Part shown: one piece after another, positions 4,303 to 4,949 of the stretch
How the letters are laid out: every line of letters begins with the position of its first letter
How positions within the stretch are numbered: position 1 is the stretch's first letter
Origin: Deltaproteobacteria bacterium
GTDB lineage: Bacteria; Desulfobacterota_B; Binatia; UBA9968
Assembly (NCBI GenBank): GCA_027297485.1
Contig: JAPUHZ010000475.1
Coordinates: forward strand, 1-6,167
Length of the DNA: 6,167 bases
Direction of reading: 5' to 3'
Made by a program: the position numbers and the translations under genes
The notes under the pieces: model-generated
Told to the model about the DNA's origin: nothing
Database searches by the model: none
The model's input: only the letters and a program-made list of their open reading frames with translations

Positions 4303-4427
4303 CGTTTTACCTTCTTCTTCTAAACAGAACTTTATCCAGTTGCAGATTCCGTTTATATATTTTCCTTCCCCACCACCCAGCGTGCAAACTCCTCAGCCGC
4401 TGCCTTCGCACAGGCCATGTCCAAATC

Positions 4428-4431
4428 ACCG
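4428..4431. repeat. Target-site duplication, left copy (ACCG)
   Basis: ACCG directly abuts the left end of the MITE and is repeated at its right end. On the gene strand it reads CGGT and lies in the Gly108 codon region of the GlcG-like gene. Four bases could match by chance, but the frame restoration on excision supports it. Confidence 0.7.
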
Positions 4432-4611
4432 TTAGCCCACATTTCTCACCGGAGCGCGAAGCGAGGGCGCGCAGATGCCCGGAGATACAAGACACGCGAG
4501 AGACAAAGCGCGCAGGCGTACTGTACGTCGAGCCCTTTGTCCGAGCGTAACGCCGTAGATTCAGGTAGATGCGCGCACGCAGCCGTGGGCTGGTGAGAAT
4601 TGCGGGCTAGG
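4432..4611. mobile_element. 180-bp MITE-like insertion element
   Basis: The ends are imperfect inverted repeats. TAGCCCACATTTCTCACCGG (4433-4452) and the reverse complement of 4590-4609, TAGCCCGCAATTCTCACCAG, match at 17 of 20. ACCG flanks both sides (4428-4431 and 4612-4615) as a target duplication. The element has no coding capacity. It is GC-rich and folds on itself: GACAAAG (4502-4508) pairs with CTTTGTC (4535-4541), centred at 4521.5, the exact midpoint of the element, with GCGTAC/GTACGT nested inside. It interrupts the GlcG-like gene and supplies its new stop codon. A non-autonomous element moved by a transposase encoded elsewhere fits. The parent family is not certain; a 4-bp duplication occurs in several IS families. 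Confidence 0.82.
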
Positions 4612-4615
4612 ACCG
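4612..4615. repeat. Target-site duplication, right copy (ACCG)
   Basis: This is the second ACCG, directly after the right end of the MITE. Collapsing this and the left copy into one rebuilds a continuous GlcG-like reading frame. Confidence 0.7.
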
Positions 4616-4949
4616 CTTACTCCGACGGCTCCTTGTACCTCCCCGTCGTGGATTAAGGGGGCACCACCTCTCGCAAAGATGAACGGGCCCGGATCCTTGG
4701 CCGCCACGCTCTGCCAGAAGAGCGGATTTTCTTTTGCCTTCGCTGCCATGACCGCCGTGTAGGCCTTGCCAATCGCTACTCTTCCCATCGTCCTTCCAGT
4801 CCTGTCCATCTTTTCAAAAGCGACCAGATCCCCGCCAACGTCCACCACCACCACCACCACGATTGGCTTATCGCCCGCCAGTTTCCTTGCCTCAGCAATA
4901 AGCCTCTGGGCTACCTCCAAGCTCAGTTTCGTCACAGTTCCTAGCCTTC

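Follow-up and report, generated by a model that had tools for sequence, protein, structure and literature searches.

Small palindromic elements have been described in several bacterial genomes. In Geobacter uraniireducens, the Chunjie MITE spans 178-235 bp, has repeated ends and flanking repeats, and has a copy inside an operon; the same source presents the Rickettsia palindromic elements, which are palindromes of about 150 bp located inside genes (PMC10969869). Coxiella burnetii contains two bacterial MITEs, QMITE1, of 300-400 bp with repeats of 2-3 nt, and QMITE2, with variable direct repeats of 7-11 bp; small RNAs are produced from some copies (PMC5896051). Among larger transposons, piggyBac uses a four-base TTAA target (PMC7351741; PMC10813416) and displays terminal motifs such as CCCTT, with IS1380 as the outgroup (PMC10813416); for IS1247, another IS1380 member, a 5-bp repeat is listed (PMC3281130). 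These descriptions follow the available parts of the cited sources.

The locus considered here lies in a window of 6,167 nucleotides, namely the whole stretch of contig JAPUHZ010000475.1 (assembly GCA_027297485.1, Deltaproteobacteria bacterium) that was analysed. Computation reveals a 171-bp insertion and its target, a family of relatives with ends shared with IS1380, a covarying fold of one strand, and the recurrence of this core in elements bounded by other ends. The joint reading that we favour, with a probability of about 0.6, is that of a non-autonomous transposon, which would be served in trans by an IS1380 transposase and would carry a conserved, one-strand, RNA-like cargo.

An insertion in a GlcG-like gene

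On its minus strand the window contains a GlcG-like gene (PF03928) that was broken by the insertion of one element. The upstream part, up to GVSGPS, occupies 4607..4935, with an open frame that continues to 4561 inside the element; the severed 3' part, GDLDMACAKAAAEEFARWVVGKENI followed by the stop, is found at 4353..4431 and matches the C-terminus of the homologues, just beyond the insert, where an earlier note made from the sequence alone had placed it. The protein sequence is GVSGPS up to the element and continues as GDLDMACAKAAAEEFARW beyond it. A protein search with this GlcG-like protein found seven sequences, the window's own among them, and the four homologues that reach the insertion point have GVSGPSGD or GISGPSGD, with no insert; this comparison with relatives, which the earlier note had proposed, reveals uninterrupted homologues and an insert that is not conserved coding DNA.

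The GPSG of the homologues implies a native GGT CCT AGC GGT, thus the duplicated target is CTAG. Its right copy, CTAG (4607..4610), corresponds to the native CCT AGC, and the left one, TTAG (4432..4435), is one base off CTAG and is recognized by comparison with the CTAG or TTAA duplications of relatives; neither copy has a strand. The ACCG copies previously taken as duplications derive from the two GGT (glycine) codons native to this sequence, whose reverse complements they contain, and are ruled out as the target by the homologues, since GVSGPSGD and GISGPSGD make CCTAGC native coding DNA. The mobile element proper, as delimited by the match to covariance model R2 and by the GlcG homologues, is 171 bp long (4436..4606, on the plus strand, which is the best-folding one and the forward strand of the family); the insertion had been correctly perceived at first, but as a MITE of 180 bp with other ends. 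Similarly, the removal of 184 bases does join the two halves in frame, as proposed, giving 132 aa, but the native cut is of 175 bases with one CTAG kept and produces a 135-aa GlcG-like protein ending GVSGPSGDLDMACAKAAAEEFARWVVGKENI.

The element begins with a left terminal inverted repeat, CCCACATTTCTCACC (4436..4450, plus strand), of the same end type as in IS1380 elements, and finishes with a right one, whose reverse complement is CCCGCAATTCTCACC (4592..4606, minus strand); a conserved rod-shaped core (4452..4590, plus strand), identified by model R3 and common to elements with other ends, is found in between. The palindrome described in the earlier note is real: inverted-repeat arms of 18 bases (4433-4450 and 4592-4609; 2 mismatches, 16/18 matching, TAG..CACC) had no equal at that spacing in ten dinucleotide shuffles of the window. 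No transposase gene is present within the 171 bp, a short length as expected of a MITE. Model R2, which was built from 69 relatives with the window excluded, but aligned with model R1, whose 36 sequences include it, matches 4433-4609 with 130.5 bits on the plus strand (E 4.2e-35) and 52.1 bits on the minus strand.

Eight residues, A[IV]SGRET[AT], that all six other homologues have are missing from the GlcG-like gene (window 4700-4935), indicating that it is damaged elsewhere too. One extra valine is also observed, in a CCA/CAC repeat run of the plus strand near 4845-4862. In the genome contigs, 61 stretches fit the peptide pattern of GlcG relatives and 0 were confirmed, so that no nucleotide-level empty site is available for the window. 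Neither the window element nor one relative had a blastn match in plasmids; in phages one relative gave no match, and the window element only 38-base matches at E 0.05. The sole other inverted repeat noted in the window is longer than the 18-base arms and lies at the very left end (1-71 and 310-380; 71 bases, 70/71 identical); it repeats, in inverted form, the beginning of a DUF6036-like gene, and may be an artefact of fold-back or assembly, or else a genuine inverted duplication.

Spread, target and ends of the family

A search of GTDB contigs for two such ends, 167-227 bases apart, returned at least 119 stretches. Among the matches listed there are 121 elements, 96 spanning 179-184 nt and 64 exactly 182; they are found in at least 55 genomes of about ten phyla, according to a hand tally of accession prefixes. 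The other copies whose search had been suggested are present in many genomes, with titles that include Pseudomonadota, Acidobacteriota, Gemmatimonadota, Planctomycetota, Kiritimatiellae, Nitrospira, Myxococcota, 'Deltaproteobacteria', Fermentibacteria and Eisenbacteria. Most carriers are MAGs, for which binning can mislead; named strains are Thioalkalivibrio sulfidiphilus ALJ17 and Acanthopleuribacter pedis. The closest relatives of the window element among the matches listed are 76% and 71% identical.

With R2, and counting the centre genome in each case, matches were found in 10/144 genomes of the phylum of G007 (E<=1e-10), in 8/185 of the class of G001 and in 18/149 of the phylum of G010 (both at E<=1e-15); the strict two-end pattern was present in one of the 61 genomes of the family of G011, namely G011 itself. 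Six chosen carriers, all genomes of relatives, have 20-53 matches each at E<=1e-18, a count in which a single element may score on both strands, and the 18-base end pattern occurs from 2 to 61 times per genome in 14 carriers, with 0 for the reversed control. No description of the family was found in the part of the open-access literature that was searched. Within these limits the family is undescribed, as had been proposed; the term MITE family, conversely, misses a conserved and strand-specific interior, which is found also between different terminal repeats.

Some elements have the same ends and a different interior, such as L042, L045, L021 and L035, which reach only 40-46 bits with model R1. 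The viral contigs L002 (1-124) and L003 (1-125 and 4669-4768) are bounded by another palindromic repeat, with CTAGCCCGCATTTCTCACC ends and a different interior. Their R2 score is 18 bits or less; several kinds of small elements share these ends.

Both flanks could be compared in 78 of 80 copies fetched from three genomes: they are CTAG/CTAG in 46, TTAA/TTAA in 5, and unequal or changed in the other 27. The occurrence of both pairs indicates that the tetramer is the target and not the element end. Direct repeats outside CTAG did not stand out in 94 elements (four-base, 1 against 0.4 expected; three-base, 4 against 1.6). When one CTAG is kept in the relatives, 31 frames span the junction; three recognizable genes were picked by eye, and many of the remaining frames look like chance. 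The clearest restored gene is MtfA, where NL|VIHEFAHKLD aligns with NLVVHEVAHKLD of 3dl1 with no gap at the junction; the second is a B12-dependent ribonucleotide reductase and the third a GxxExxY protein, which matches from residue 6 to 122 across a junction at 38.

The same ends are found in IS1380 elements. Three of six plasmid IS1380 loci (L143, L144 and L148) have CTAGCCCGCATTTYTCACA ends and lengths of 1663-1667; in L143 and L144 the CTAGCCCGCATTTCTCACA ends are accompanied by CTAG on both sides, and L148 is likewise arranged, with one base changed. L145 has altered ends, and in L146 and L147 no such ends were found by script. Scores above the NF033539 cut-off were obtained for L143, L135, L011 and L148. 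Two Stutzerimonas plasmids (L265/L144) provide an empty and a filled site for a 1663-bp IS1380 element, with a single CTAG, and in G011, the genome that holds the window's closest relative among the matches listed, the start of an IS1380 gene adjoins TTAGCCCGGAAATCTCACC. Counting against an IS1380 enzyme as the mover are the 5-bp repeat listed for IS1247 and the scarcity of PF13701 transposases, which are present in only 4/14 carrier genomes, above the cut-off in 2; MAGs are often devoid of repeated genes, as may be the case here. In carriers of other end types they occur in 2/9 genomes, and ends matching those types were absent at these two loci. The element interior has no similarity to four IS1380 elements that stands out above shuffles, R2 gives nothing above 9 bits in loci L135, L143 and L144, and a closer autonomous IS1380 parent may be absent from the data. 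Integron attC and REP readings were set aside on general grounds, as the ends agree with those of IS1380. Mobility, with an IS1380/piggyBac-like target, is well supported, and the shared ends suggest that an IS1380 enzyme may move it.

The fold of one strand and its core

The hairpin noticed in the earlier note is confirmed, since 177 nt of the window form one full-length hairpin. With RNA parameters its energy is -91.3 kcal/mol, versus -62.4 +/- 4.3 for 200 shuffles (z -6.7); with DNA parameters z is -2.4, and 3/200 shuffles do as well. When 36 elements with less than 80% identity, the window's among them, were aligned, both-side changes were present in 30/46 pairs of the consensus hairpin, with 247 doubly changed cells versus 91 when shuffled, and 92.0% of cells are paired, versus 77.1% shuffled and 35-42% slid; the sequences are related, and the shuffle control leaves the signal of kinship in. 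The internal loops are rich in purine-purine oppositions: 33 non-redundant forward strands display 33 G.G (4 in the reverse strands), 42 A.G or G.A (4 in the reverse) and 22 GA/GA (0 in the reverse), and GA facing GCA, in either order, 27 times. No Rfam 15 family accounts for the fold: the window region gave a single unrelated match, outside the element (E 0.59), and there were 0 matches for 16 loci at gathering scores and for 12 short loci at E up to 0.1.

The fold of the forward strand is stronger than that of its complement in 99/99 elements and in all 36 non-redundant ones, with a mean difference of -19.9 kcal/mol (window, -91.3 versus -80.0); it is the more stable one with DNA parameters as well (36/36). 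The orientation given by the middle 70 nt alone is also that of the entire element in 99/99, with small margins for some. Dinucleotide-shuffled forward strands already have -7.5 kcal/mol over their complements, and the observed difference goes beyond the mean of the shuffles in 35/36 elements, with an average z of -3.3. The excess of G.T over A.C varies with the choice of pairs and with the region: it is 157 to 27 in the structure predicted from the forward strand, 17 to 8 in the pairs predicted from both strands, and 116 to 55 when pairs are defined by Watson-Crick letters only; this last set, summed by region, gives 73 to 13 in columns 19-42 but 15 to 26 in columns 67-85, where the alignment is poor. 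Changes within genomes amount to 31 distinct G.T and 16 A.C, not different from the ratio between lineages, and such copies do not distinguish selection that acted once an element had inserted from selection within the lineage that spreads. Neutral decay after insertion had been considered from a first hint (G.T 37, A.C 26; 17 and 18 without the two mixed groups JALSSX and DAOWFV), which these counts did not uphold.

The same core is found between other ends. Weaker R2 matches, of 79-87 bits, have ends that begin TAGAACGTATCTCAT, TAGGGTGTGTACC, AAGTTCGCATCC, TAGAATTCATTTCG or TAGAGCGCATCTCAA, and most of these elements retain motifs like CGU.GCGAG, CGGAGGCGU..ACGUCGAG and GCAGUAGAA. When 16 elements with the first ends were compared with 18 with other ends, 9/36 terminal positions were alike, 5 of them being letters of the target tetramer, and 32/142 core positions; this raw difference between core and ends is modest, and the stronger point is that the shared core letters fall in loop motifs that stay fixed as the outer stems are rebuilt. 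In a core-only alignment that excludes the window and comprises 31 elements (16 of the first end type and 15 of other types), 32 of the 33 pairs have both-side changes, and 87.7% of cells are paired, versus 63.9% shuffled and 35-43% slid. The core-only model R3, also made without the window, recognizes 4452-4590 on the plus strand with 83.6 bits (E 2.6e-23), and gives no match at E<=1 on the minus strand. R3 matches occur in 21/149 genomes of the phylum of G008 (E<=1e-9); among eight of these R3 loci, L288, L289 and L293 have TAGCCC..TTCTCACC ends, others are bounded differently, and L292 shows no visible end repeat. Many of the cores with other ends (L266-L283) contain a motif pair like GAGGACGCACAAG and GCGGAGGACGAAG, untypical of the CCCGCATTTCTCACC group. 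An interior without conserved function is a usual property of MITEs rather than part of a strict definition; here, the core is conserved, covarying and one-stranded across end types.

These data support an interior kept for a one-strand fold, with relatedness and composition accounting for part of the signal. Indeed, an ordinary IS1380-derived MITE family, older and wider, could have had its palindrome maintained by end matching or arm-to-arm conversion, and its strand difference inherited from a purine-richer, G+T-richer founder; its ends and target fit IS1380, the shuffled strands differ already by 7.5 kcal/mol on average, kinship remains in the shuffle control, and the within-genome counts of 31 and 16 reproduce the ratio between lineages. 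However, the observed difference of 19.9 kcal/mol exceeds the shuffled mean in 35/36 elements, both-side changes affect 32/33 core pairs across end types, and the fixed loop motifs outlast the replacement of the ends, for which a deletion derivative would have no reason, making this origin unlikely.

It is more doubtful still that the one-strand fold was selected as single-stranded DNA, during replication, DNA uptake or end synapsis, and not as RNA. Tandem G.A pairs are stable in DNA too, the forward strand prevails with DNA parameters in 36/36 elements, and no bias with respect to transcription was seen for 72 elements with an upstream gene (same direction 33, opposite 39). Against this, the window hairpin stands out much less with DNA than with RNA parameters (z -2.4 versus -6.7), the orientation relative to the replication strand, judged by GC skew, is unbiased as well (39/84), and IS1380 enzymes are DDE transposases, taken to act on double-stranded ends. 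A constraint on the reverse strand is also possible, given that frames overlapping the element lie on the reverse strand in 30/37 cases and that the reverse interior is often open. In the 36 non-redundant elements (A2) this interior is stop-free in 68/108 frames, and the forward one in 32/108. Finally, the view that there was no insertion at all, the sequence being original coding DNA of GlcG or an artefact of assembly, has in its favour that a single contig is known with this protein and is scarcely credible, since the insert is absent in the four homologues spanning the point, an independent model matches it with E 4e-35 and the target duplication is as seen in relatives.

Proposed mechanism and comparison with known systems

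The preferred reading is that of a non-autonomous transposon of about 180 bp with a conserved cargo. Its CCCGCATTTCTCACC-type ends would be recognized in trans by a DDE transposase of the IS1380 family, related to piggyBac, and insertion would occur at palindromic tetramers, CTAG and less often TTAA, which are then duplicated. The interior would not be drifting filler, but a rod of the forward strand with fixed, purine-rich internal loops, which may act as RNA once the insertion is transcribed; this rod, to which a host protein or an RNase probably binds, would favour the persistence of the element itself. An RNA function is suggested by the modelled fold, whereas the unbiased direction of neighbouring genes and the unbiased GC skew speak against it. 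We propose more tentatively, at a little under even odds, a SINE-like bacterial family, in which a rod-shaped ncRNA core of about 140 nt would be kept by selection and the terminal repeats, perhaps with the transposase partner, would have changed several times.

MITEs are usually taken as filler between two transposase-binding ends, whereas here the middle stays while the ends change, and the fixed loops and one-strand fold are kept in about ten phyla, the carriers counted having tens of copies. Provided that the RNA is made, it would represent a large ncRNA class absent from Rfam, and a selfish DNA equipped with a device made of RNA. In addition, the family links some bacterial IS1380 elements, as a group, to a target rule like that of piggyBac (TTAA/CTAG), and the covariance models allow its annotation at once.

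Among known systems, the Chunjie MITE, compared by its description only, is alike in size, ends and flanking repeats. For the QMITEs, the available part of the source reports no conserved core across end types (PMC5896051), differently from the present family. The Rickettsia palindromic elements, as far as the source describes them, encode a conserved in-frame peptide, whereas in the present case the insertion stops the gene and the forward strand is rarely open (13/108 frames). piggyBac, in the available descriptions, is similar in its four-base TTAA target and in terminal motifs such as CCCTT; however, it is eukaryotic and autonomous, and TTAA is the rule, while CTAG is commoner here. The IS1380 insertion sequences (NCBIfam NF033539, PF13701) differ in being autonomous elements of 1663-1667 bp with a transposase gene, and, in the four compared, no likeness to the small element was seen beyond the ends, but they have the same ends and the same CTAG target.
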